From positions 36,031 to 100,030 of the forward strand of contig JAAZLO010000021.1 in NCBI GenBank assembly GCA_012689375.1: DNA of 64,000 nucleotides. The letters run 5' to 3'. This DNA comes from Bacillota bacterium (GTDB lineage: Bacteria > Bacillota > SHA-98 > UBA4971). Position 1 is the stretch's first letter. Each line of letters opens with the position of its first letter. Of this stretch, positions 26,730 to 38,497 are shown in pieces. The translations under genes were made by a program, and so were the position numbers. The notes beneath the pieces are model-generated. The model was not told where the DNA came from, made no database searches, and saw only the letters and a list, made by a program, of their open reading frames with translations.

Positions 26730-28505
26730 GTGTCCAAAGAGATTGTTGTTAGCATTGGGCCGGGCGAAACCCGTGCCGCCGTTGTAGAAAACGGCAGGCT
26801 GGAGGAAGTATATATTGAAAGATCAGCCCACCAGAGACATGTTGGTAATATATATAAGGGTAAGGTTAAAAATGTGCTCCCCGGTATGCAGGCGGCTTTT
26901 GTAGATATAGGCCTTGAACGAAATGCTTTTCTTTATGTTGATGATGCATTGAAAGCCAGGGAAACACAATATGATGATGTTGATATAGAAGATTTAAAAG
27001 CACTTTCGATCAGGGATATTCTCAAAGAAAATCAGGATGTTATTGTTCAGGTTACGAAAGAGCCTATAGGTACAAAAGGGGCCAGAGTAGTCACTCAGGT
27101 TACTTTGCCCGGTAGGAATGTGGTGCTTATGCCTACTGTGGATTACGTAGGGGTAAGCAGACGAATCACAGATGATAATGAAAGAACCAGATTAAAAGCA
27201 GGTGCAAGCAAAGCCAAACCCAGGGGATGTGGTGTTATTGTTCGTACTGCGGCAGAAGGTAAGAAGGAAAATGAAATCAGTTCCGAAATTAAATTTTTAG
27301 TTAAGCTATGGCGACGAATAAAACAAAAAGCGCGTCGGGTAGCCGCCCCCAGCCTTTTGCATCGGGATTATAACTTAATATACAGGATCATGAGGGATCT
27401 TTTATCCGAAGACGTCGACGCCTTTATCATTGATAATAAAAGGGAGTTTTTGAAGGCCGAAGATATTATAGAAATGATGTCCCCAAAATTAAGAAGGAAA
27501 TTAAAACTTTATCGGAATGAGACTCCTATTTTAGAAGCCTACGGTATTGAAAGTGAAATTGAAAAGGCTTTGCACCGTAAAGTGTGGTTATCATGCGGGG
27601 GGTACATTATTTTCGATGAAACTGAGGCCTTGACAAGTATTGATGTGAACACCGGCCGTTATACCGGTACAATAAATCTCCAAGATACTGTTTTAAAAAC
27701 TAACCTCGAGGCAGCCAGTGCAATAGCCCACCAATTAAGGTTGAGAAATATTGGTGGAATCATTATTATTGATTTTATAGATATGGATTCCGCGGAAGCC
27801 CGGGAAGAAGTTGCAAAACGGCTTGAGGAAGAATTAAAAAAAGATAAGACTAAGGCAACAGTCCTCGGTTTTACTCACCTTGGTCTTCTGGAGATGACAC
27901 GTAAAAAAACCCGGCCGGGACTCCGGGAGGCCCTCACGAGATCTTGTCCGTACTGTGATGGGAAAGGAATAGTACTGTCTGAAGAGACTCTTGCATTCAA
28001 GGCGGAGAGGGCATTAAAACGGGTTGCGGTTAAGACTGATCAAGAGGCTATGATGGTTCTTTTGCACCCTAACGTCGCATCCCTACTTATTGGACAGGGA
28101 GGGGGGAATCTCTCCAGGCTGGAACAGGAGACAGGTAAGTCCATATACGTTAAGGGGAATTTAAGTTTTCATATGGAAGATACAGGCGAGATCATAACCG
28201 GGAGCCAGGAGGCAATTAAGAAGATGGCTGTTCCCGTCGGTATAGGGGATGTTTTAGAAGTTGAAATAAAAGAACAGCATGCCTCTAATCCAATGAACGG
28301 CATTACAAGGATAGATGGATATATCCTGGATATTGATGGTGCAGGTAGCTTAATAGGTGAAAGAATGTTAGTTGAGATTCAAAAAGTTTTCAGGACATAT
28401 GCCAAGGCAAAACCTATGGATGCAAAGGATGCAAAAAATGCTGTGGCTGATATGATTGTAAACACCTCAACGAACATGATGATAGCCGGTAATGGACGTG
28501 TTTGA
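26730..28505 (+). CDS. rng: Ribonuclease E/G
   Basis: This endoribonuclease takes part in rRNA and mRNA processing. The 591-residue product has an N-terminal S1 domain (GNIYKGKVKNVLPGMQAAFVD), the catalytic domain with aspartates in SIDVNTGRYTG and IIIDFIDMD, and the zinc-link motif CPYCDGKG near residue 410. About 180 residues follow, longer than E. coli RNase G. GTG at 26730 follows TGAGGAGTGAGG. Its place before rplU-rpmA is common in Bacillota. Confidence 0.93.
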   Translation: MSKEIVVSIGPGETRAAVVENGRLEEVYIERSAHQRHVGNIYKGKVKNVLPGMQAAFVDIGLERNAFLYVDDALKARETQYDDVDIEDLKALSIRDILKENQDVIVQVTKEPIGTKGARVVTQVTLPGRNVVLMPTVDYVGVSRRITDDNERTRLKAGASKAKPRGCGVIVRTAAEGKKENEISSEIKFLVKLWRRIKQKARRVAAPSLLHRDYNLIYRIMRDLLSEDVDAFIIDNKREFLKAEDIIEMMSPKLRRKLKLYRNETPILEAYGIESEIEKALHRKVWLSCGGYIIFDETEALTSIDVNTGRYTGTINLQDTVLKTNLEAASAIAHQLRLRNIGGIIIIDFIDMDSAEAREEVAKRLEEELKKDKTKATVLGFTHLGLLEMTRKKTRPGLREALTRSCPYCDGKGIVLSEETLAFKAERALKRVAVKTDQEAMMVLLHPNVASLLIGQGGGNLSRLEQETGKSIYVKGNLSFHMEDTGEIITGSQEAIKKMAVPVGIGDVLEVEIKEQHASNPMNGITRIDGYILDIDGAGSLIGERMLVEIQKVFRTYAKAKPMDAKDAKNAVADMIVNTSTNMMIAGNGRV

Positions 28506-28536
28506 CATAATAGGTTCGGGTGTGGTAGACTTCTTC

Positions 28537-28600
28537 GTGCGGGCATTTATTGCTCCGCCGCACAAAATGGGTTAACTGGAAACATGCATGAGATGCATGT
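28537..28600 (+). promoter_or_regulatory. Structured leader ahead of rplU
   Basis: Two hairpins precede rplU. GTGCGG (28537-28542) pairs with CCGCAC (28558-28563), and ACATGCAT (28582-28589) pairs perfectly with ATGCATGT (28593-28600) around a 3-base loop. Ribosomal protein L21 operons in Bacillota often have autoregulatory leaders; I cannot confirm the known family by eye. Confidence 0.45.
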
Positions 28601-28643
28601 ACCCTTATTTTGGCGAGACAGAGCAAGAGGGGAACTGAAATTC

Positions 28644-28955
28644 ATGTACGCGATAATTGAAACCGGCGGTAAACAGTACAGGGTAAAAGAAGGGGATGTC
28701 CTTAGAGTTGAACGGCTTCCCCACGAACCCGGAGAAGTTTTAGAATTTGAAAACGTCTTATTTGTACGCAATGGTGATGAAATTAAAATCGGGAATCCCA
28801 GGTTGCCTAATACCTGTGTTTCGGCAAAAGTGATTGCTCAGGGTAAAGGCAGGAAAATCTTGGTATTCAAGTATAAGGCTAAGAAAAATTATCGAAAGCG
28901 TTATGGTCATAGGCAGCCGTATACGGAAGTCCGGATACAAGAGATAAAGGTTTGA
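28644..28955 (+). CDS. rplU: 50S ribosomal protein L21
   Basis: The 103-residue product begins [18 protein letters not shown] and ends [15 protein letters not shown], a complete L21 that binds 23S rRNA in the large subunit. The ATG at 28644 has GAGGGGAA before it; an in-frame ATG at 28584 lies inside a perfect hairpin and would add 20 residues not seen in L21. rpmA follows after 39 bases. Confidence 0.96.
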
Positions 28956-28994
28956 TTTAAAATTAGTGCTTTGTAATTCAGGGGGTGAATGATA

Positions 28995-29255
28995 ATGGCC
29001 AGGAAAAAGGGTGGAGGCAGTTCGAGAAACGGAAGGGATTCTCAAGCCCAACGCCTAGGAGTTAAGGAATATGCAGGTCATCGTGTTAATGCCGGAAGCA
29101 TACTGGTCAGGCAAAGGGGGACCAGGATTCATCCTGGCTTAAATGTTGGGGTAGGTACAGACCATACACTTTATGCGAAAGTAAACGGGCTTGTTTCATA
29201 TGAACGGCGCGGGCGGAAGAAGACTCAAGTAAGTGTTTACCCTGAAGCCATATAA
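28995..29255 (+). CDS. rpmA: 50S ribosomal protein L27
   Basis: The 86-residue product begins [16 protein letters not shown], so the GGGSS tail that reaches the peptidyl-transferase centre is at the N-terminus directly. Many Bacillota L27 proteins start with a short extension cleaved by the protease Prp, encoded between rplU and rpmA. Here neither the extension nor prp is present. ATG at 28995 has AGGGGGTGA; an ATG at 28989 would add two residues. Confidence 0.96.
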
Positions 29256-29415
29256 AGCACTTAAGGGGTGTCTTTCAGTATCAAGTTTATATGTGTAAGG
29301 AATGAATTTATCCGAAGAGTTTGATGTGAAACCCTCGTGGGCTCAGCAGATATGCTTGCCTGCGGGGGTTGCTTGTCATATTTGAAGGGGAAATGCCACT
29401 TCGGGGTGGTCTGAA

Positions 29416-30414
29416 ATGTTTGTTGATAAGGCTACAATTTTTGTAAAAGGCGGGGACGGAGGATCAGGCTGTGTCAGTTTTAGGAGAGAAAAATACGTCC
29501 CGGCAGGCGGCCCTGACGGCGGGGACGGCGGGGATGGGGGGAGTGTGATCCTTTCCGTATCCCCAAGATTACATACGCTAATGGATTTACGTCGTAAAAA
29601 ACATTATAAAGCTGCCCATGGGCGTCCGGGGAGTGGAAAGAACAGGCATGGCGGAAAAGGGGATGACATAATCATAGAAGTCCCTCCAGGCACGATAGTA
29701 TATAATTCTTCTTCACGGGAAGTAATAAAAGATCTCGTTTCTCCGGGCCAGACTGTTACAGTGGCGACAGGCGGTAAAGGCGGGAAGGGTAATGCCAGGT
29801 TTGCAACTGCAACGAAACAAGCGCCGCGCTATGCTCAACCCGGGCAAAAAGGGGAAGAACTCAAAATTGACCTAGAATTGAGGCTTCTGGCTGATGTAGG
29901 CTTTGTAGGGTTACCTAATGCAGGGAAGTCAACCCTCCTCTCGCGGATTTCAGCTGCCCGGCCGAAAATTGCAGATTATCCGTTTACCACAACCCGGCCC
30001 CACCTCGGTGTTGTTGATTTAGGGAATGGAAGGAGTTTTGTTGTTGCAGATATACCCGGTCTTATTGAAGGAGCGCACATGGGATCTGGCCTGGGGCATG
30101 AATTCTTAAGACATATAGAGCGTACTGAAGTCTTGGTTCATGTTTTAGATATGGCAAGTGTGATGGAGGGACGTGACCCAGTTGAGGATTACCATACCGT
30201 ATGTGGCGAAATGAGGCTTTATAATCCTGAACTTGCCAGTCGCCGGACAATATTGGCCCTTAATAAAATGGACTTACCCGAAGCCAGAAAATATTATGAG
30301 GAATCTTTAAATGATTTATCCGGATTGGATCGGGAAATATACCCAATTTCTGCGGTGACCGGCGAGGGAATAGACAGACTCCTCGAAGCGATGGCAGGGG
30401 CACTTAATCTTTAA
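29416..30414 (+). CDS. obg: Obg GTPase without the C-terminal OCT domain
   Basis: Obg is a ribosome-associated GTPase in large-subunit assembly and stress or sporulation signalling. The 332-residue product has the glycine-rich Obg fold (about 1-157, with GGDGGDGGS-type repeats). The G domain shows GLPNAGKSTLLS, DIPGLIEGAHMGSG and NKMD. It ends at GEGIDRLLEAMAGALNL, without the roughly 80-residue OCT domain found in Bacillus Obg. A 160-base gap before it contains an imperfect hairpin (AACCCTCGTGG with CCTGCGGGGGTT). Confidence 0.95.
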   Translation: MFVDKATIFVKGGDGGSGCVSFRREKYVPAGGPDGGDGGDGGSVILSVSPRLHTLMDLRRKKHYKAAHGRPGSGKNRHGGKGDDIIIEVPPGTIVYNSSSREVIKDLVSPGQTVTVATGGKGGKGNARFATATKQAPRYAQPGQKGEELKIDLELRLLADVGFVGLPNAGKSTLLSRISAARPKIADYPFTTTRPHLGVVDLGNGRSFVVADIPGLIEGAHMGSGLGHEFLRHIERTEVLVHVLDMASVMEGRDPVEDYHTVCGEMRLYNPELASRRTILALNKMDLPEARKYYEESLNDLSGLDREIYPISAVTGEGIDRLLEAMAGALNL

Positions 30415-30457
30415 ATTACAATCCATTGTATGAATTGTGGTTAGGGGGTTGAATTTA

Positions 30458-31123
30458 TTGCAGTTATCAGATTCTATCGTGCCTTGTAAAAAGTCCGGGA
30501 TCAGGAGAGTCGGGTTAATGGGTGGGACTTTCGATCCGGTTCACTATGGCCATTTAGTGACTGCGGAAGTTGCAAGGGCTAAGTTTTTATTGGATTTAGT
30601 AGTTTTTGTTCCTGCGGGAATCCCCCCTCACAAAAAGGGAATTAAAATATCCCAAGGAACTGACAGATACATGATGACGGTTTTAGCAACCGTTTCAAAT
30701 CCTTTCTTTAAAGTGTCCAGGGCGGAACTTGATAGGCCCGGTCCTTCTTATGCTATTGATACCGTTGAATATTTTTGTACAACTTTTGACAAGGGGACTG
30801 AAATTTTCTTTATTACTGGTGCTGATGCTGCTGTAGAAATCCTGACATGGAAAGACGCGAAGGATCTTCTTAAGAAATGCGGTTTTATTGTCGCAACTCG
30901 CCCAGGCTATTCTACAGGCGAACTAAAGGGGCATCTCAAAGAAGCAAAATTATATTCAACGCATTGTATTTATACAGTCGAGGTCCCGGCCCTTGCTATC
31001 TCCTCAACAGATATCAGACGTAGGGTAAAGCAAGGTGAGCCTATTCGGTATTTACTGCCGAGAAATGTAGAAAACTATATTTATAAGACAGGGCTTTATT
31101 GCCCAAATAAAATAACGGAGTAA
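30458..31123 (+). CDS. nadD: Nicotinate-nucleotide adenylyltransferase
   Basis: NadD adenylates nicotinate mononucleotide in NAD synthesis. The 221-residue product has the nucleotidyltransferase signature GGTFDPVHYGHLVTAE near residue 25 and the ISSTDIRRR motif near 195. About 20 residues precede the conserved start of the family. TTG at 30458 is placed by AGGGGGTT at 30443-30450. The usual next gene, yqeK (HD-domain phosphatase), is absent; a probable RNA gene follows. Confidence 0.92.
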   Translation: MQLSDSIVPCKKSGIRRVGLMGGTFDPVHYGHLVTAEVARAKFLLDLVVFVPAGIPPHKKGIKISQGTDRYMMTVLATVSNPFFKVSRAELDRPGPSYAIDTVEYFCTTFDKGTEIFFITGADAAVEILTWKDAKDLLKKCGFIVATRPGYSTGELKGHLKEAKLYSTHCIYTVEVPALAISSTDIRRRVKQGEPIRYLLPRNVENYIYKTGLYCPNKITE

Positions 31124-31163
31124 TAAAAAGTTCGAATTATGTGTAATATCTGAATGAGGAGAG

Positions 31164-31192
31164 TTTACAATAAGAAGGTTCAATGGTATAAT
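31164..31192 (+). promoter_or_regulatory. Strong sigma-A promoter for the RNA upstream of the RRM gene
   Basis: TTTACA (31164-31169) and TATAAT (31187-31192) are 17 bases apart, and TGG directly before TATAAT gives an extended -10. Transcription would start near 31199. Confidence 0.7.
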
Positions 31193-31198
31193 ACTACA

Positions 31199-31456
31199 AA
31201 CGGCAGAAATTGGAGGTAGGCCTGAGTGCCATAGTGATACGGAAGTAACTATTGGGCTAACTGAAAAGGCCTCCTGGCTCAGATTCTACCTTGCTGGCTT
31301 CCACAGTTACCGGATGCTTACGGAACAGGAACTGATCGGGGATTCGGCGAGTGCGATTGAATTAATGCGGCTGGATTGGAATAAAGACGGCCGCACTACT
31401 GTCTGAAGTTTATATGTGCGGACAAGGAGCCAAGGCAAAATACTGACCTTGGTTTT
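31199..31456 (+). ncRNA. Probable structured RNA of unknown family, or leader of the RRM gene
   Basis: Between an excellent promoter and an intrinsic terminator lie about 258 bases that fold into successive hairpins. AGGTAG/CTACCT (31214-31219 with 31286-31291) continues into CTGAG/CTCAG (31222-31226 with 31278-31282). Within it, GCCATAGT (31228-31235) pairs with ACTATTGGGC (31248-31257) with one bulge. Then come CAGTT/AACTG (31304, 31330), AGTGCG/CGCACT (31350, 31392) and TGTCTG/CGGACA (31400, 31419). GGAGG (31212-31216) can instead pair with CCTCC (31270-31274), so a switch is possible. I do not recognise 6S, RNase P, tmRNA, SRP or a known riboswitch. It may be a free RNA or an attenuating leader. 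Confidence 0.5.
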
Positions 31457-31461
31457 CCTTT
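31430..31461 (+). terminator. Intrinsic terminator between the structured RNA and the RRM gene
   Basis: CCAAGG (31430-31435) pairs with CCTTGG (31447-31452), followed by TTTTCCTTT. It lies 21 bases before the RRM ribosome-binding site, so it could end a free RNA or act as an attenuator. Confidence 0.65.
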
Positions 31462-31486
31462 CATAATCACGCGGAGGTGACTCATA

Positions 31487-31744
31487 GTGACAAAGACCCT
31501 TTATGTAGGGAATCTCCCCTGGTCAGTGACTGATGAAGAACTCAGTCAAGTGTTTGGGGCTGTTGCGGAGGTTAGGGGATCCAGAGTAATTGTTGACAGA
31601 GTGACTCAAAAATCACGAGGTTTTGGTTTTGTAGAAGTTGCGGAAAGCGATGCTGAGCGTGTCATAGATGCAATGAACGGTACTGAACTCCAGGGAAGGC
31701 CTCTTGTTGTTAATGAAGCAAGGGCCAGACAAAATCGATTCTAG
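31487..31744 (+). CDS. RRM-domain RNA-binding protein
   Basis: The 85-residue protein is a single RNA recognition motif. RNP2 is LYVGNLPW (residues 4-11), RNP1 is RGFGFVEV (about 44-51), and a short basic tail (NEARARQNRF) follows. Such small bacterial RRM proteins resemble cyanobacterial Rbp proteins, some of them cold-inducible; the role here is unknown. The GTG start has a near-ideal GGAGGTGA at 31473-31480. It sits directly after a terminator-bearing structured RNA and before rsfS, both of which suggest an RNA-linked role. Confidence 0.93.
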   Translation: MTKTLYVGNLPWSVTDEELSQVFGAVAEVRGSRVIVDRVTQKSRGFGFVEVAESDAERVIDAMNGTELQGRPLVVNEARARQNRF

Positions 31745-31776
31745 GCTTATTCTTATGATGCGGGAGGCGGAATAAT

Positions 31777-32169
31777 ATAGACGGTATATCCATAGTTGAA
31801 GCTGCTTGTGAGGCGGCTTTGTCCCGGAAGGCAGTTGATATAATCGTATTTGATGTTAGGGGTATAACAATTATTGCTGATTATATGGTTTTAGTCAGCG
31901 GTACATCGGACAGGCACGTAAGGGCTATAGCTGACGGGGTACAGTACGATATTAAAGAAAAGGGTACATTACCCCTCAGCAAAGACGGAGCCTGTGAGGC
32001 AGGATGGATTGTACTGGATTACGCAGATACTATTATTCATGTATTCCATGTTAAGGAACGGGAATATTATGATTTGGAACATTTATATAAAGAGGCTAAG
32101 GTAATCCTGACAAACCAATCGATGGCGGAAAGAGAACTGAACAAGCCGGTGAAACAGGGACGGGCATAG
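31777..32169 (+). CDS. rsfS: RsfS ribosomal silencing factor, apparently starting at ATA
   Basis: RsfS binds L14 and blocks subunit joining in starved cells. The conserved body KAVDIIVFDVRG...GTSDRHVRAIADG...HVFHVKEREYYDLEHLY is complete. Homologues have a first helix of about 15 residues before this body. The same frame supplies it (SIVEAACEAALSR), but the only candidate initiators are ATA at 31777 or 31786, since the frame is closed by TGA at 31756. GGGAGG at 31762-31767 is 9 bases from ATA 31777. The alternative, TTG at 31819 with a weak GAGG, would cut off that helix. The product from ATA is 130 residues. Confidence 0.85.
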   Translation: MDGISIVEAACEAALSRKAVDIIVFDVRGITIIADYMVLVSGTSDRHVRAIADGVQYDIKEKGTLPLSKDGACEAGWIVLDYADTIIHVFHVKEREYYDLEHLYKEAKVILTNQSMAERELNKPVKQGRA

Positions 32170-32190
32170 ATCTTTATAATCCTGATCGGC

Positions 32191-32218
32191 TTGACTTTTA
32201 ACGAACGTTTGTTATAAT
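32191..32218 (+). promoter_or_regulatory. Promoter of the leuS leader with an internal dyad
   Basis: TTGACT (32191-32196) and TATAAT (32213-32218) are 16 bases apart. The spacer contains AACGAACGTTTGTT (32200-32213), a dyad symmetric at 12 of 14 positions, so a repressor could sit on this promoter. Confidence 0.7.
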
Positions 32219-32244
32219 CGCACTATACTATATTACCTAATACG

Positions 32245-32616
32245 AATATAGCGGACTGCGATGAAAAGGAACAGTAGGAAAGAATTGCTGCTTCCAGAGA
32301 GCCTGCAGCGGTGAAAGCAGGTGCAACGAATTAATCCGAACTCGCCTTTGAGCTTCGTAGATGAAGGCCATAATGGGTTTTATTCAAAAAAGATAACAGG
32401 AGATAGTCTACGACGGGTAAGCGTACGTTATGCGCAAAAGACGGGCAAGCAGAAGAATGTTGTGGGGACGTAGCTCAGCTGGGAGAGCGCGTGAATGGCA
32501 TTCATGAGGTCGTGGGTTCAAATCCCATCGTCTCCACCATTTTTTCCCTTCTTGCTAATAAGGGTGGTACCGCGGGAATTATCCTCTCGTCCCTAGTGGC
32601 GAGGGGTTTTCTTTTT
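32245..32616 (+). promoter_or_regulatory. T-box riboswitch of leuS (Leu CUC specifier), interrupted by a tRNA gene
   Basis: The leader senses uncharged tRNA-Leu and controls leuS by antitermination. Stem I features are GATGA (32260), AGTA loop-E (32273-32276), AGAGAG (32296-32301), the apical hairpin CCTGC/GCAGG enclosing GGTGAAA, and GAA-CTC (specifier 32341-32343) followed ten bases later by GAGC. TCGTAGA/TCTACGA (32355, 32407) forms a further stem. The T-box AGGGTGGTACCGCG is at 32561-32574. The antiterminator pairs AGGG with TCCCT (32590), and the terminator is CCTCTCG/CGAGGGG (32583-32606) with TTTTCTTTTT. A full tRNA gene lies between the two halves, which is not the normal layout. Confidence 0.92.
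32464..32539 (+). tRNA. tRNA-Ala (anticodon GGC)
   Basis: The 76-base gene folds as a canonical tRNA. Acceptor GGGGACG/CGTCTCC includes G3:T70, the alanine identity pair. The D-arm is GCTC/GAGC, the anticodon stem CGTGA/TCATG with loop ATGGCAT (anticodon GGC), the variable loop AGGTC, and the T-arm GTGGG-TTCAAAT-CCCAT. Discriminator A and encoded CCA are at 32536-32539, with T6 right after. It is embedded in the leuS T-box leader, so it is transcribed from the leader promoter before the leuS antitermination decision. A tRNA-Ala is not the cognate ligand of this Leu T-box. Confidence 0.96.
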
Positions 32617-32687
32617 GATGACAAATAAGTCAATGAATTATTTATATCTCATTTGGTAAGTGTTACTTCCTGAGAGGGTGGTTGAGC

Positions 32688-35168
32688 ATGGAGGATAAAT
32701 ACGATTTTTCGGGACTTGAATCTAAGTGGCAAAGGGTTTGGGAAGAAACAGGGATATATCATTCAGATCCACATCCCGTTAAACCGAAATATTATGCACT
32801 GGAAATGTTCCCCTATCCGTCAGGGAGGCTCCATATGGGCCATACGAGGAATTATGCTATCGGTGATGTAATAGCAAGATTCAGGAGGATGAGCGGATTT
32901 TGTGTCCTTCACCCTATTGGGTGGGATGCATTTGGGCTTCCCGCTGAAAATGCAGCTATCGAAAGGGGTATCCCACCGTCCGATTGGACGAAGACTAATA
33001 TTGAGCATATGCGTGAGCAATTTCGGCGATTGGGTCTGAGCTATGATTGGAGGAGAGAGGTGGCTTCCCATCACCCCGGATATTACAAATGGACCCAATG
33101 GCTTTTTCTCCGGCTATTTAAACATGGGCTTGCATATAGGAAAAAAGCACAGGTTAACTGGTGTCCTGATTGTCAAACGGTTCTAGCTAATGAACAGGTT
33201 GTTCAGGGGCTTTGTGAAAGATGCAGCACAGAGGTTAAAAAGAGAGAACTTAAGCAGTGGTTTTTAAGGATTACTGATTATGCTGATAGGCTCCTTGAAA
33301 ACCTCGACAATCTGGAGGGTTGGCCTGAAAAAGTTAAGATAATGCAAAGAAATTGGATTGGAAAAAGTGAAGGAATTGAGGCTATTTTTAAATTAAAAGG
33401 CACAAATGATGAGGTTAAAGTATTTACTACAAGGCATGATACTATTTTTGGTGTCACGTATCTTGTGCTTGCCCCAGAACACCGACTTGTTGGTAAAATA
33501 ATTTCCGGTTCCCCCGAAGAACAGGAGATAAGGGAGTTTATCAGAGAGGTGACTGGCAAAAGTGAGATAGACAGGACCAGTGATCTTACTGAAAAGACTG
33601 GGGTGCCGACAGGTGCCTATGCAATAAACCCTATGTCAGGTGAAACCATCCCTATTTGGATTGGCAATTATGTCTTACCTCACTATGGGACAGGGGCAGT
33701 TATGGGTGTGCCGGCCCACGATCAACGGGACTTTGAATTTGCAAAGAAATACGGATTACCTATAAAACCTGTAATTTCCCCCAAAACTCAAACAAAAGTG
33801 GGGGAGGACAAAGTTTATGAAGACCCCGGCATAATGATAAATTCACCTGGGTTTAACGGGACGGAAAGCGAGGTTGCGAAAGATGCGATTGCCGATTTTA
33901 TGGAAAAGCGAGGTTTAGGTAATCGCGCTACAAACTACAGGCTTCGTGACTGGTTAATTTCAAGGCAAAGATATTGGGGTGCCCCAATACCAATTGTGTA
34001 TTGCAATTCATGCGGAATTGTGGCGATCCCTGAAAATGAATTACCTGTCCGGCTTCCGCTGGACGTGGAATTTACACCCGGCGGACAATCACCTTTGAAT
34101 TATATACCTGAATTTGTTAATACGAGGTGCCCAAAATGTAATGGTCCGGCGAAACGTGAGACTGACACTATGGATACTTTTATGTGTTCGTCATGGTACT
34201 ATATCAGATTTACCTGCCCGAGGATGGAAGATAAAGCCTGGGATCGGGAAACAGCAGATTATTGGCTCCCCGTGGATCAGTATACAGGCGGAGTAGAGCA
34301 TGCAATACTGCATTTAATGTATTCAAGATTCTTTACCATGTTTCTCCATGATATCGGACTCCTAAAAACTGAAGAGCCGTTTGCCCGCCTGCTTACTCAG
34401 GGCATGGTCTTAAAAGACGGAATTAAGATGTCTAAATCCAAAGGGAATATTGTCGATCTTAAAGAAATGTTGGATACCTACGGGGCAGATACAGTCAGGC
34501 TTTTTACATTGTTTGCATCCCCCCCTGACAGAGATTTTGAATGGAATGAGCAAGGGGTGGAGGGTGCATCACGATTCTTAGGTAGGGTCCGGAGGCTTAT
34601 CTATGAATTCCAGCATGAATTTAATCATTCCGACACTGATTATAAAGATATACCGGAATTAATGCCTGAAGATAAGGAAATGCGTAGGAAAGTCCATACA
34701 ACGCTAGAGAAAGTTACAAAGGATTTAGATAGGTACAGTCTTAATACGGTTATTGCGGCAGTGATGGAGCTTGTTAATTCACTGTACCAATTCCGGGAGG
34801 CGGCTAAGGCCAGGGTTTCCGCTGGGAAGGTTATGAAAGAAGCCATTGAAATTGTCTTGTTAATGCTGGCGCCTTTTGTACCTCATATAACTGAGGAACT
34901 ATGGCATGAACTTGGGTTCACTGACAGTATCCATAAGGAAGACTGGCCGGATATAGATAAAAGCGCTCTGTTTGAGGCAGAAGTCGAAATTGTAATTCAG
35001 GTTAACGGACGGGTCAGGGACAGAATGTATGCACCTAAAGGCAAAGATCATAAATATCTGGAGAGTGCAGCCTTAAAGCAGGATAGGATTAAGGAGTTTG
35101 TCGGTAATAAAGAAATTCGTAATGTTTTTGTAGTTCCTGACAAACTTGTAAATATAGTAATTAGTTAA
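32688..35168 (+). CDS. leuS: Leucyl-tRNA synthetase
   Basis: LeuRS charges tRNA-Leu. The 826-residue product has the HIGH-type motif GRLHMGH near residue 45, the zinc-like cysteine segment WCPDCQTVLANEQV, the CP1 editing domain (TRHDTIFGVTYLV), and KMSKSKGN near 585. The C-terminal anticodon-binding region is complete (FVPDKLVNIVIS-type end). The ATG at 32688 is well spaced from AGAGGG; TTG at 32682 is too close. Expression is gated by the upstream T-box. Confidence 0.97.
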   Translation: MEDKYDFSGLESKWQRVWEETGIYHSDPHPVKPKYYALEMFPYPSGRLHMGHTRNYAIGDVIARFRRMSGFCVLHPIGWDAFGLPAENAAIERGIPPSDWTKTNIEHMREQFRRLGLSYDWRREVASHHPGYYKWTQWLFLRLFKHGLAYRKKAQVNWCPDCQTVLANEQVVQGLCERCSTEVKKRELKQWFLRITDYADRLLENLDNLEGWPEKVKIMQRNWIGKSEGIEAIFKLKGTNDEVKVFTTRHDTIFGVTYLVLAPEHRLVGKIISGSPEEQEIREFIREVTGKSEIDRTSDLTEKTGVPTGAYAINPMSGETIPIWIGNYVLPHYGTGAVMGVPAHDQRDFEFAKKYGLPIKPVISPKTQTKVGEDKVYEDPGIMINSPGFNGTESEVAKDAIADFMEKRGLGNRATNYRLRDWLISRQRYWGAPIPIVYCNSCGIVAIPENELPVRLPLDVEFTPGGQSPLNYIPEFVNTRCPKCNGPAKRETDTMDTFMCSSWYYIRFTCPRMEDKAWDRETADYWLPVDQYTGGVEHAILHLMYSRFFTMFLHDIGLLKTEEPFARLLTQGMVLKDGIKMSKSKGNIVDLKEMLDTYGADTVRLFTLFASPPDRDFEWNEQGVEGASRFLGRVRRLIYEFQHEFNHSDTDYKDIPELMPEDKEMRRKVHTTLEKVTKDLDRYSLNTVIAAVMELVNSLYQFREAAKARVSAGKVMKEAIEIVLLMLAPFVPHITEELWHELGFTDSIHKEDWPDIDKSALFEAEVEIVIQVNGRVRDRMYAPKGKDHKYLESAALKQDRIKEFVGNKEIRNVFVVPDKLVNIVIS

Positions 35169-35205
35169 TACTGCGGTTATTTCGGTATGGTTAATATAGT
35201 CTGTA

Positions 35206-35237
35206 AAATCCCCGCCTTCGTAAGGCGGGGATTTTTA
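35206..35237 (+). terminator. Intrinsic terminator after leuS
   Basis: AAATCCCCGCCTT and AAGGCGGGGATTT form a perfect 13-bp stem around a 3-base CGT loop, ending in a T-rich tail. It is the clearest terminator of the window. Confidence 0.92.
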
Positions 35238-35382
35238 TTGAAGCGGTTTAGTTTAAAAATCTATTCTTTACATCACCCAAAAACTGCCTGAAAGGGTAGC
35301 ACTGGTTATGGAGGGGACGTACCGGATATATCGAAGATTTAATTGTAATGATAGCTTTCCCCTCAGAAATAAGGTGAGTGCT

Positions 35383-36057
35383 ATGTTAGATCTCCCAAAA
35401 CGACAAAAACAAGCTGCTTTAGTGCTGGTTTTGGCACTTGCCGTAGGCGGGATTGTTTTATTTGTAAGAGGTTCTGCAGATCCTCCTATAGTTGTATACC
35501 CGGGCCCTCTTGTCAAAGACGGAAGCGGGGAAGGAGAGGTGATTCAATCAAAGGCGGATTACGGAAATCTGGAAATAGAAGGACAATTAGCTTCGGGTTC
35601 AGCCGAAAAGCCGAAGCCTGAAGATCTTGTCGTACATGTATGTGGTGCCGTCAAAAATCCCGGTGTTTACACCCTTTCCGGGGGCATGCGTATTAAAGAT
35701 GCAGTGGAGGCTGCTGGGGGGCTTGAGGATTCAGCTATACAGGAAGCAATAAATATGGCCACAAAGCTCACCGATTCTATGCAGATTTATATCCCGGAGA
35801 GATCTGGGACCTTTGAATCTGATACAGGTGAAGCAGATATTGTTCTGAATGCCTTCGCTAATGACAAAGTTAACATTAATACCGCAACCTCAAGTCGACT
35901 TCAGGACTTAATTGGAATTGGGCCTGCATTGGCTAAAAGGATACTTGATTTCAGGGCGGCTGGCGGCAGATTTGATTGTCCTGAAGATATCATGAAAATT
36001 CCCGGAATAGGAACGAAAAAATACGCCGATTTAAAGGATTTAATAACAGTTCACTAA
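35383..36057 (+). CDS. comEA: ComEA-like DNA-binding competence protein
   Basis: ComEA binds incoming DNA at the outer membrane face. The 224-residue product has one N-terminal membrane helix (about 10-30), an SLBB domain (VHVCGAVKNPGVYTL near residue 85), and a C-terminal helix-hairpin-helix pair (VNINTATSSRLQDLIGIGPA and IMKIPGIGTKKYADLK). The ATG at 35383 follows AAGGTGAG; an ATG at 35308 would put 25 residues before the anchor. comEC lies 19 bases downstream. Confidence 0.92.
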   Translation: MLDLPKRQKQAALVLVLALAVGGIVLFVRGSADPPIVVYPGPLVKDGSGEGEVIQSKADYGNLEIEGQLASGSAEKPKPEDLVVHVCGAVKNPGVYTLSGGMRIKDAVEAAGGLEDSAIQEAINMATKLTDSMQIYIPERSGTFESDTGEADIVLNAFANDKVNINTATSSRLQDLIGIGPALAKRILDFRAAGGRFDCPEDIMKIPGIGTKKYADLKDLITVH

Positions 36058-36076
36058 TTATCGGAGCTGAATAGAA

Positions 36077-38497
36077 ATGTCCGGTGAGGACCGTCTTTTT
36101 TTATTCGGTTGTTTTTTTATACTGGGAATAGTTCTACAGGGAATATACAGTGATCAATCGGTGCTTATCCCTGTTTGCGTTGCTGTTGAATGTTTTCTTG
36201 TAATAGGTATTTTTCTTTTTAGGATAAAGGGGCAGCGGAGAGTTTATGTCAATTGGGCAATATTGTTATGTGCTGCCATGGTTATAGGTGCTTTAATCAT
36301 GGGTGTATGCACAGCACGGAGACGGGGTACTGAGGAACTGATCTCATATATTGCAGGTAAAGACTGTGAGATTCAAGGGTCCATAATCGGTATACCGGAA
36401 ATTGAAAACGGTGGAAAGTGGAGGGCAACTCTAAAATCAGAATCAATTATGGGTAATAAAGATCTCTGCGGTGTGAGCATACTCCTTACGGGAACTGTTG
36501 ATCCAGGAACTGATTTTCAGCTCCGGACAGGTAATACAATATCTGCTACAGGGCGCTTTTATTTACCGGGGGCGCCTTTGAACCCGGGCGAACCCGATAT
36601 GCGAAGAATTATGGCCTGTAGGGGGCTGAACGGAACTCTTTATGTGGGAGACACCTGTAATATTCATGTTTTGGATAGGGGGAAATTGAACTTTATCTGC
36701 TATTGTGCAATGTTATTAAGGGAGGGGATAATTTCTACTTGTGAATCTACACTCCGGCCGCGGCAAGCAAAGGTACTTTCAGGAATGCTTCTAGGTAAGG
36801 CCCCTGTTTATATGAAAACTGCTTTGGAATCCACGGGTACATCCCACCTTTTTGCTGCCTCAGGCCTACATCTGGGCTATGTAGTCTTGACATGTATTAC
36901 TATCCTTGCACCAGTTAGATTACCGGTATTAATTAAGTCTGTGATTGTATTTACGTTTATTTGGGTTTATGCAATTGCCTGCGGTTTAAGTGCATCAATA
37001 TTTCGGGCGGCCCTTATGTTTTCATTTGGGATTCTTCCCAAACCCGGGGAAATCAAAATATCTTCTAAATCTACCTTGGTTTTAGCGTCTCTTGTTATGT
37101 TTACTGTAAATCCGTACGCTGTTTTTGATGTAGGGGTACAACTTTCCTGCTTTGCAGTTCTTTCAATTATTCATCTTTATCCCCGGATTTACAATTTATC
37201 AAAGCCCCTTGGAAATCACTTGTCTGATATTTTTTCGTTATCTGTTTCTGCCCAATTGGGAGTTATGCCTCTTATCGTTTGGTATTTCGGAATATTTGCG
37301 CCTATTGGTATCGTTGCCAACATTCCATGCGTAATTCTTACCGGTATGGCGGTACTGATAGGCTTGTCAGCTACCTTAATAAATTTCATCTTCCCCCCTT
37401 TAGCACTGATGCTTAATACGGCTAACGGTTTTATTATATTAATCTTGGAAAAAATTATAGAATTTTTTTCTAGAGTTCCCTTAGGCATTTTTACCTTGGG
37501 AAGACCCGGGGTTTGGCTGATAGTCCTTTATTATCTGGGGATAATCGCCTTTGGGATTCCGAGGCGTTTTAGAAGATACCTCTGCATTAAAGTAAACCTT
37601 ATTTTCTTTATTGTACTTACGATTGCATTAGGTTCCGTTATGTACTCTATAGTGGAACGCCAAAAAATTGAGGTGGTGTTTTTCGCAGTCGGTCAAGGGG
37701 ACGCAATATTTATTAAAAGTACAAGGGGTAAATTATTCCTTATTGACGGTGGTGGATTAGCGGGTCAATCAAAGGATCCGGGCAGGGATATGATCTTACC
37801 CTTTTTCAGGCGCAGGGGGATAAACCATATAGATGTTATTATATGTACACACCCTCATTATGATCATATAAAAGGCCTTTTTGCAGTGCTTGACTCATGT
37901 AGTGTTGATTTAATTTTAAAGCCGGAAATACCCGGGCACATGATACCCGATATTGACTATGCTTTAGCCAAGCTTGCAAAAGAAAAAAATACACCTGTAG
38001 TCGAGCTTGTTGAGGGCGGCCGGCTTGATATAGGGGACGGGATCAAAATATGTGTCCTTAATCCGGCTATTGATTATTTAGAAAAAGCATATGCAGGACA
38101 TGTCCTGACAGATCTAAATGCGCTTTCACTGGTAATGAAGTTGGAATACAGGGAGTTTTCCCTGCTCCTTACAGCAGATGCAGGAAAGGCTCAATTAGGT
38201 GCAATTATAGATTCAGAGGAAAACCCTAAAACAACGGTGCTTAAAGTCCCACACCATGGTTCAAGGGACGGTCTGAGCCCCAGGATTATAAATTCTATAA
38301 AACCGTCTGTTTCAGTAATATCCGTTGGCCCGAATCCCTTTTCACATCCGGCGTATGAAGTAGTTGAAAATTTAACCGGAGCAGGCTCTGTTGTTTTCCG
38401 GACTGATATAGACGGTGCCGTGATTTTAAGAACCTGTGGAAAACGAGTTCATATCAGGTCAATAAAGAGCAGCCGTTTTTTTAAGGGGACCCTTTAG
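36077..38497 (+). CDS. comEC: ComEC/Rec2-type DNA internalisation channel
   Basis: ComEC forms the membrane channel for single-stranded DNA uptake. The 806-residue product has N-terminal helices, the competence domain (GKAPVYMKTALESTGTSHLF...SGLHLGYVV near residue 260), and a C-terminal metallo-beta-lactamase-like domain. That domain carries CTHPHYDHIKGL near residue 593 and VPHHGSRDG near 725, thought to be a nuclease. It appears intact, so natural transformation is possible, although no pilus genes are visible. Confidence 0.93.
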   Translation: MSGEDRLFLFGCFFILGIVLQGIYSDQSVLIPVCVAVECFLVIGIFLFRIKGQRRVYVNWAILLCAAMVIGALIMGVCTARRRGTEELISYIAGKDCEIQGSIIGIPEIENGGKWRATLKSESIMGNKDLCGVSILLTGTVDPGTDFQLRTGNTISATGRFYLPGAPLNPGEPDMRRIMACRGLNGTLYVGDTCNIHVLDRGKLNFICYCAMLLREGIISTCESTLRPRQAKVLSGMLLGKAPVYMKTALESTGTSHLFAASGLHLGYVVLTCITILAPVRLPVLIKSVIVFTFIWVYAIACGLSASIFRAALMFSFGILPKPGEIKISSKSTLVLASLVMFTVNPYAVFDVGVQLSCFAVLSIIHLYPRIYNLSKPLGNHLSDIFSLSVSAQLGVMPLIVWYFGIFAPIGIVANIPCVILTGMAVLIGLSATLINFIFPPLALMLNTANGFIILILEKIIEFFSRVPLGIFTLGRPGVWLIVLYYLGIIAFGIPRRFRRYLCIKVNLIFFIVLTIALGSVMYSIVERQKIEVVFFAVGQGDAIFIKSTRGKLFLIDGGGLAGQSKDPGRDMILPFFRRRGINHIDVIICTHPHYDHIKGLFAVLDSCSVDLILKPEIPGHMIPDIDYALAKLAKEKNTPVVELVEGGRLDIGDGIKICVLNPAIDYLEKAYAGHVLTDLNALSLVMKLEYREFSLLLTADAGKAQLGAIIDSEENPKTTVLKVPHHGSRDGLSPRIINSIKPSVSVISVGPNPFSHPAYEVVENLTGAGSVVFRTDIDGAVILRTCGKRVHIRSIKSSRFFKGTL

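Follow-up and report, generated by a model that had tools for sequence, protein, structure and literature searches.

A complete tRNA-Ala(GGC) gene in the Stem III loop of a leuS T-box leader, conserved in records of several phyla

The tRNA–tufB operon of Escherichia coli is a known case in which a tRNA and the protein gene behind it share a transcript, from which the tRNA has to be excised. In T-box riboswitches, Stem III is variable in both stem and loop, and the available part of PMC7583486 describes insertions of unknown function in Stem III or Helix A2 as well as tandem T-boxes. The leuS leader in our window (the whole stretch of 64,000 nucleotides of Bacillota DNA that was analyzed) holds a complete tRNA-Ala(GGC) gene: ARAGORN places it inside a match to the Rfam T-box family RF00230 at 32252–32597, which covers model positions 1–219, the full model, with 101.2 bits (gathering threshold 93, E = 5.6e-22). 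The alignment leaves 101 nt unmodeled, and the tRNA falls inside these. An earlier sequence-only reading had proposed exactly this nesting, between the two halves of a T-box, and had named two unrelated leaders as a possible source of error; both halves are indeed present, and the covariance search places Stem I and the antiterminator in one match. As no further RF00230 match occurs within 28000–38000, the leader does not comprise the two units of a tandem T-box. The genome of the window encodes nine T-box matches, the remaining eight of which are without a tRNA.

All elements lie on the forward strand in the order rsfS-like gene, promoter-like site, Stem I, Stem II and IIA/B, tRNA-Ala(GGC), T-box sequence, hairpin, and leuS (table 1). 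We take the upstream gene to be rsfS-like, and presume the two regions behind Stem I to be Stem II and Stem IIA/B. The specifier codon in the Stem I loop denotes the amino acid of the downstream gene, and the terminator-like hairpin is expected to compete with the antiterminator. A cloverleaf, the GGC anticodon, G3:U70, and A73 identify the embedded gene as a tRNA-Ala; G3:U70 and the encoded CCA of the earlier description are both present. ARAGORN found no second tRNA in the 64 kb window, and a promoter scan of the window found no site on the forward strand between Stem I and the tRNA. Elsewhere in the window, a subthreshold RF00559 match (L21 leader of ribosomal proteins; 23 of 36 bits) lies at 28559–28619, near a gene named by eye as rplU-like.

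Table 1. Features of the leuS leader and its neighboring genes in the window.
Feature	Position	Strand	Evidence and remarks
rsfS-like gene (presumed), just upstream of the leader	31819..32169	+	Open reading frame
Sigma-70-type promoter-like site, TTGACT-16-TATAAT with TG	32191..32218	+	11/12 consensus positions; consensus match only; upstream of Stem I
T-box Stem I	32252..32352	+	Rfam RF00230 alignment
Specifier CTC (Leu), in GAACTCGCC	32341..32343	+	Sequence and RF00230 alignment; invariant in genus alignment
Stem II region (presumed)	32356..32413	+	RF00230 alignment; approximate boundaries
Stem IIA/B region (presumed)	32414..32433	+	RF00230 alignment; approximate boundaries
Stem III 5' strand AGCAGAAG	32448..32455	+	Can pair with 32548–32556; register by eye from genus alignment
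Complete tRNA-Ala(GGC) gene, in the Stem III loop	32464..32539	+	ARAGORN; G3:U70, A73, encoded CCA
Stem III 3' strand CTTCTTGCT, one T bulged, then AA	32548..32556	+	Sequence and genus alignment
T-box sequence AGGGTGGTACCGCG, UGGN antiterminator bulge	32561..32574	+	RF00230 alignment; invariant in genus
Intrinsic terminator-like hairpin and T tract	32583..32616 (hairpin 32583–32606)	+	Sequence scan
leuS, leucyl-tRNA synthetase	32688..35168	+	ATG start, TTG at 32682 alternative; named from sequence, homologues found

The sequence-only reading had the tRNA standing in place of a short linker between sensor and antiterminator. Its position is instead the loop of Stem III: in the Rfam alignment, the two arms of the helix ahead of the T-box sequence flank the tRNA. 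For the register of this helix in the window, Rfam pairs GGCAAG with CUUGCU, versus the strands read by eye from the genus alignment (table 1). With respect to the element order 5'-RRRxG–Stem III–AA-3', the AGACG of the Rfam register fits, whereas the GGGCA of the genus register does not. The AA is found at the expected place before the T-box in the window and in 91 of the 103 distinct leaders with enough upstream sequence; in 97 of 103, RRRxG can be found somewhere within the 35 nt ahead of the tRNA, a count that has no control set and may often reflect chance. The duplex energy of the tRNA flanks averages −11.1 kcal/mol, compared with −8.5 for shuffles of their own composition and −8.1 for flanks mispaired between species (0 of 5000 permutations as low, in a test that does not remove the relatedness among leaders). 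An anchored six-pair Stem III score is 4.28, where the highest of 500 shuffles scores 3.27. A rigid anchor for Stem III understates variants with other spacing. Taken singly, the leaders are less uniform: their own flanks beat the shuffled mean in 86 of 103, with p ≤ 0.05 in only 28, and among all 103 candidate partners the true one ranks first for only 10 flanks. A minority of leaders thus show weak or doubtful Stem III pairing. The leader as a whole is not predicted to be more stable than its shuffles (z = −0.22), making this folding uninformative.

The odd look of the locus is all that speaks for a recent insertion disabling or rewiring control, one of the two options in the sequence-only reading, or for an assembly error. 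We regard either as almost certainly wrong, and conservation in the genus, across species and in a phylum sample rules out a recent or private event: the arrangement occurs in many independent genomes, cultured isolates included, and its parts are largely intact, the specifier and T-box being kept and the terminator and Stem III pairing present in most leaders. All six other genomes of the genus that were searched carry it, with leader identities of 74–80%. Mean pairwise identity over the seven genus genomes is highest for the tRNA (0.985), followed by the T-box with terminator (0.918), Stem I (0.79), and the Stem III 5' arm with linker (0.75); the rest of the leader ranges between 0.64 and 0.65. 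A further scan, which took a single genome from each of 84,980 species, accepted any tRNA T-arm with CCA lying 3–33 nt ahead of a T-box core, and is thus neutral toward tRNA identity. This yielded at least 119 loci, of which at least 101 (101 of the 119 among the matches listed) have tRNA-Ala(GGC) directly ahead of the T-box sequence; both are lower bounds, since an encoded CCA was required and the window's own genome was perhaps left out. With six of six other genus genomes and 101 of the 119 listed matches showing the arrangement, cultured isolates among them, it is neither chance nor an assembly join. ARAGORN identified 98 of the 101, and three (L056, L093, L154) were recognized by eye, having a T-box sequence and a tRNA-Ala that is cut at the end of the piece or rearranged. 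No T-box was seen by eye in the remaining 18 of the 119 listed matches: 13 of these are without an ARAGORN tRNA, and five (L057, L086, L095, L126, L127) carry another tRNA and were rejected as candidates for other tRNAs in T-boxes. L063, with only 41 nt upstream, can hardly be judged, and L144 and L149 have just 15–16 nt before the tRNA, too few to show a sensor. Assembly faults probably account for the inverted duplication that L202 has at a contig edge and for the rearranged 5' half of the tRNA in L093.

According to record titles, with the phylum taken from the tree for members in it, the carriers include Syntrophomonas, Thermosyntropha, Desulfotruncus, Desulfofundulus, Desulfallas, Pelotomaculum, and Symbiobacterium of the Bacillota, Ktedonobacter, Dictyobacter, and Tengunoibacter of the Chloroflexota, and Sphaerobacter of the Thermomicrobiota; Syntrophomonas palmitatica, S. 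wolfei subsp. methylbutyratica, Desulfofundulus thermosubterraneus, and Dictyobacter aurantiacus are among the cultured ones. Titles of metagenome-assembled genomes (MAGs) add Armatimonadota, Atribacterota, Caldisericota, Coprothermobacterota, and Actinomycetota; single MAGs are labeled differently, perhaps wrongly (L064 as Proteobacteria, L152 as Desulfovibrio). At the level of sequence, records of several phyla share the parts of the T-box, the tRNA, and the fixed order of these elements. Within the phylum of the window, a relaxed pattern with no CCA requirement matched 90 of 398 sampled genomes, and the reversed pattern three. On inspection by eye, five of the 90 (G038, G089, G116, G248, G377) look like chance, which leaves 85 genuine ones; DNA fetched for 30 of the 90 contained an ARAGORN tRNA-Ala(GGC) in 27 cases and a tblastn LeuS match in 28.

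The specifier is CTC in 94 of the 96 loci with enough upstream sequence, 91 by pattern and three by eye (L061, L128, L138), against 3 of 96 in shuffles; the exceptions are L143, which has another sequence, and L157, which is without Stem I. Despite its divergent specifier, L143, a MAG labeled Actinomycetes, has both the tRNA and the T-box, and LeuS is matched about 600 nt further downstream. Of 98 listed loci, 92 show a LeuS match within 3.5 kb, and the other six pieces end within 1685 nt. In some loci one gene intervenes before leuS: acyl-CoA ligase-like by eye in L045, L052, L074, L090, L125, and L140, and named IlvE-like by eye in L068 and L084. Of 18 tRNA-Ala loci submitted to Rfam, 16 gave a full-length RF00230 match, seven above the gathering threshold and nine below it at E values of 1e-18 to 6e-7; L040 and L103 fell short of gathering in the strict run, the only one to cover them. 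L086, a tRNA-Ser match submitted as the 19th locus, gave no T-box. Of 20 genomes, 14, that of the window among them, have a sequence resembling the cognate tRNA-Leu(GAG), and six gave no match. In the window's genome, the match to the D-arm-to-anticodon pattern lies at G000:C115:20818–20837; this D-arm and anticodon are absent from the 40 Rfam tRNA matches of that genome.

G3:U70 and A73 are both present in all 108 loci with an ARAGORN-called embedded tRNA-Ala (98 titled and ten further loci, which include that of the window and two duplicates of titled ones). Indirect hints that this tRNA may be transcribed, matured, and charged are a preference for U at −1 and its frequent status as the sole match of its kind. 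U(−1), described as optimal for RNase P cleavage in the available part of PMC9433436, is found in 84 of 103 embedded tRNAs against a flank background of 0.215, and somewhat less often, in 67 of 104, in other tRNAs of the fetched DNA. The leader copy is the sole tRNA-Ala(GGC) pattern match in 70 of 80 phylum carriers (80 of the 85 were searched), although the pattern may miss divergent copies; in most carriers tested, the only match thus lies in a regulatory leader that would have to be cut to release the tRNA. The other ten comprise seven genomes with two matches, one of which is not tRNA-like in G153, two with none (G293, G314), and one with a single match elsewhere (G342). In the window's assembly, the embedded gene is the only tRNA-Ala among 40 typed tRNA matches; at 96% completeness, tRNA-Ala(UGC) may be absent from the assembly. 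A sole tRNA-Ala(GGC) need not be essential, because tRNA-Ala(UGC) is often able to read GCC codons. In three Ktedonobacteria records, a further tRNA lies just upstream of the T-box leader (L060:4012–4084, L103:3114–3186, L079:4387–4459); in L060 and L103 this is a tRNA-Ala(CGC) with no encoded CCA, unlike the embedded tRNA-Ala(GGC), which has one. Six phylum genomes (G023, G069, G107, G193, G140, G287) have CAC or CAA instead of CCA after the discriminator, and maturation of their embedded tRNA-Ala would need CCA addition. This bears on the idea that the tRNA is a ligand in cis, its 3' ACCA docking in the UGGU bulge of its own T-box to report alanine charging. ACCA is complementary to UGGU and the distance is short, but the unprocessed ACCA end is missing from those six genomes and the specifier denotes leucine; we consider such docking very improbable.

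We think it fairly probable that the leader has two outputs, one transcript yielding tRNA-Ala and, if uncharged tRNA-Leu is sensed, the leuS message. Uncharged tRNA-Leu would decide on read-through into leuS. In 63 of 89 leaders, a loose pattern, applied without shuffles, finds a promoter-like site before Stem I begins, and none within 110 nt of the tRNA. A terminator-like site follows in 86 of 97 leaders (16 of 97 in shuffles), at a median of 66 nt after the tRNA (48–91), and was not found in the other 11. With a promoter upstream of Stem I and a terminator behind the tRNA, the tRNA is predicted to be made in each round of transcription, and the switch would act afterwards. The T-box core begins 11–33 nt after the tRNA, so that the acceptor stem would be complete with the polymerase at or near the antiterminator, and the decision would likely be taken before cleavage; together with the pairing of the Stem III flanks across the tRNA, this proximity suggests that the decision either precedes cleavage or survives it.

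Beyond these elements we infer the processing of the embedded tRNA, its timing, and any coupling to the switch, as follows. Transcription would start at the leuS promoter and always pass the tRNA, with the output of tRNA-Ala following the promoter and not the switch. Stem I, transcribed first, could hold tRNA-Leu(GAG) during synthesis of the tRNA-Ala, whose flanks would then close Stem III and place the sensor next to the antiterminator. RNA polymerase would come to the terminator about 66 nt past the tRNA, and cleavage by RNase P would likely follow later. Terminated RNAs would be pre-tRNAs with the T-box terminator as their 3' end, and read-through RNAs would continue into leuS. RNase P and 3' trimming would release the tRNA-Ala thereafter. 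In such an arrangement, the T-box would let a promoter of tRNA strength drive a synthetase gene without overexpression.

In terms of sequence, processing of the tRNA would sever sensor and switch, although the Stem III flanks tend to pair across it. Maturation might be part of control, the second option of the sequence-only reading. RNase P cleavage would then split sensor from switch, with leuS output depending on RNase P or on the speed of pre-tRNA folding, and Stem III possibly strapping the halves together. The identical place of an identical tRNA in records of several phyla agrees with this, as does the pairing across the tRNA. A further point is G(−2)U(−1), which pairs with RCCA and lowers the kcat/Km of RNase P in E. 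coli according to the available part of PMC9433436; it occurs in 46 of 91 distinct embedded flanks compared with 35 of 104 other tRNAs (p = 0.02). This excess is weak, shrinks further when other tRNA-Ala genes serve as the comparison (13 of 30), and GU at these positions as a brake on RNase P was dropped from our main reading. The short way from tRNA to T-box core also leaves RNase P little time before the decision, and the tRNA is kept in a leader where the T-box motif was not found (G014). We hold maturation as part of control to be unlikely. A broader proposal, that excision of the tRNA-Ala by RNase P and 3' nucleases is routine while Stem III straps the cut sensor to the switch, making maturation, tRNA-Ala supply, and leucine control of leuS one RNA device kept across several phyla, is tentative, and we would call it rather unlikely.

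Relatives with partial arrangements indicate that tRNA and switch can part. Among the leuS leaders of 30 other genomes of the phylum, five have the tRNA with an exact T-box core, six the exact core without a tRNA, one (G014) the tRNA without the T-box motif, and 18 neither; among these 18, G018 has a CTC specifier and is labeled as a T-box in the tree, and leuS of G011 is incomplete. The class of the window offers a series from the full leader (the genus) through a short Stem I (G016) to the tRNA before leuS without the T-box motif (G014), and in G013 the tRNA lies 2 kb upstream with another reading frame between. A short Stem I was also recognized by eye in L062 and L083, MAGs of Coprothermobacterota and Caldisericota, where it retains the CTC specifier. 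Compared with L096, the Atribacterota MAG L157 has Stem I deleted and the promoter, tRNA-Ala, and T-box kept; it may be a natural sensor-less version or an assembly deletion.

Such cases raise the question of a frozen neighborhood, in which tRNA-Ala and leuS are old neighbors, the T-box grew around the tRNA or took it in, and the whole is kept only because losing a useful tRNA is costly, with no functional link. G013 and G014, which keep the tRNA near leuS without the T-box motif, fit this, and so do 34 of 84 loci tested that have an rsfS-like homologue no more than 2.5 kb away on the strand of the leader; the six T-box-only leaders show that a leuS T-box does not need the tRNA. Yet the tRNA keeps its place between Stem I and T-box in Ktedonobacteria, where no rsfS match was found, and Stem III pairing is kept above chance; we judge the absence of any functional link to be improbable. 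In a LeuS tree the trait is clustered, albeit not in one clade: over 113 rows it needs 13 changes, at least nine of them forced by well supported branches, versus a shuffled mean of 22.7. Because the choice of rows depended on the trait, a single origin followed by losses, transfer together with leuS, and several gains fit alike.

The leader is a real and widespread variant of the T-box riboswitch, apparently a new one, for which the dual-output reading is best supported. The earlier reading knew of no described T-box of this architecture, and we likewise found no tRNA gene in a T-box leader in the available parts of TBDB (PMC7778990), Wels 2008 (PMC2494555), and PMC7583486 or in the open literature searched; earlier papers elsewhere are possible. 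T-box Stem III can evidently host a whole second structured RNA, and one specific tRNA holds this position in records of many phyla, which raises the question of how a cotranscriptional RNA switch functions when RNase P is due to cleave its middle. Separate annotation of T-boxes and tRNAs could overlook the nesting. With the leuS-type transcriptional T-box (RF00230), the leader shares Stem I with a Leu specifier, Stem II and IIA/B, Stem III followed by AA, the T-box sequence, the terminator, and an aminoacyl-tRNA synthetase gene downstream. Among the insertions in Stem III or Helix A2, the part of PMC7583486 available names no tRNA gene. The tRNA of the tRNA–tufB operon, in turn, does not lie inside a riboswitch. 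What sets the present leader apart from the usual leuS T-box is that the loop of Stem III is replaced by the full tRNA gene of another amino acid, and that RNase P would here cut the regulatory RNA itself.
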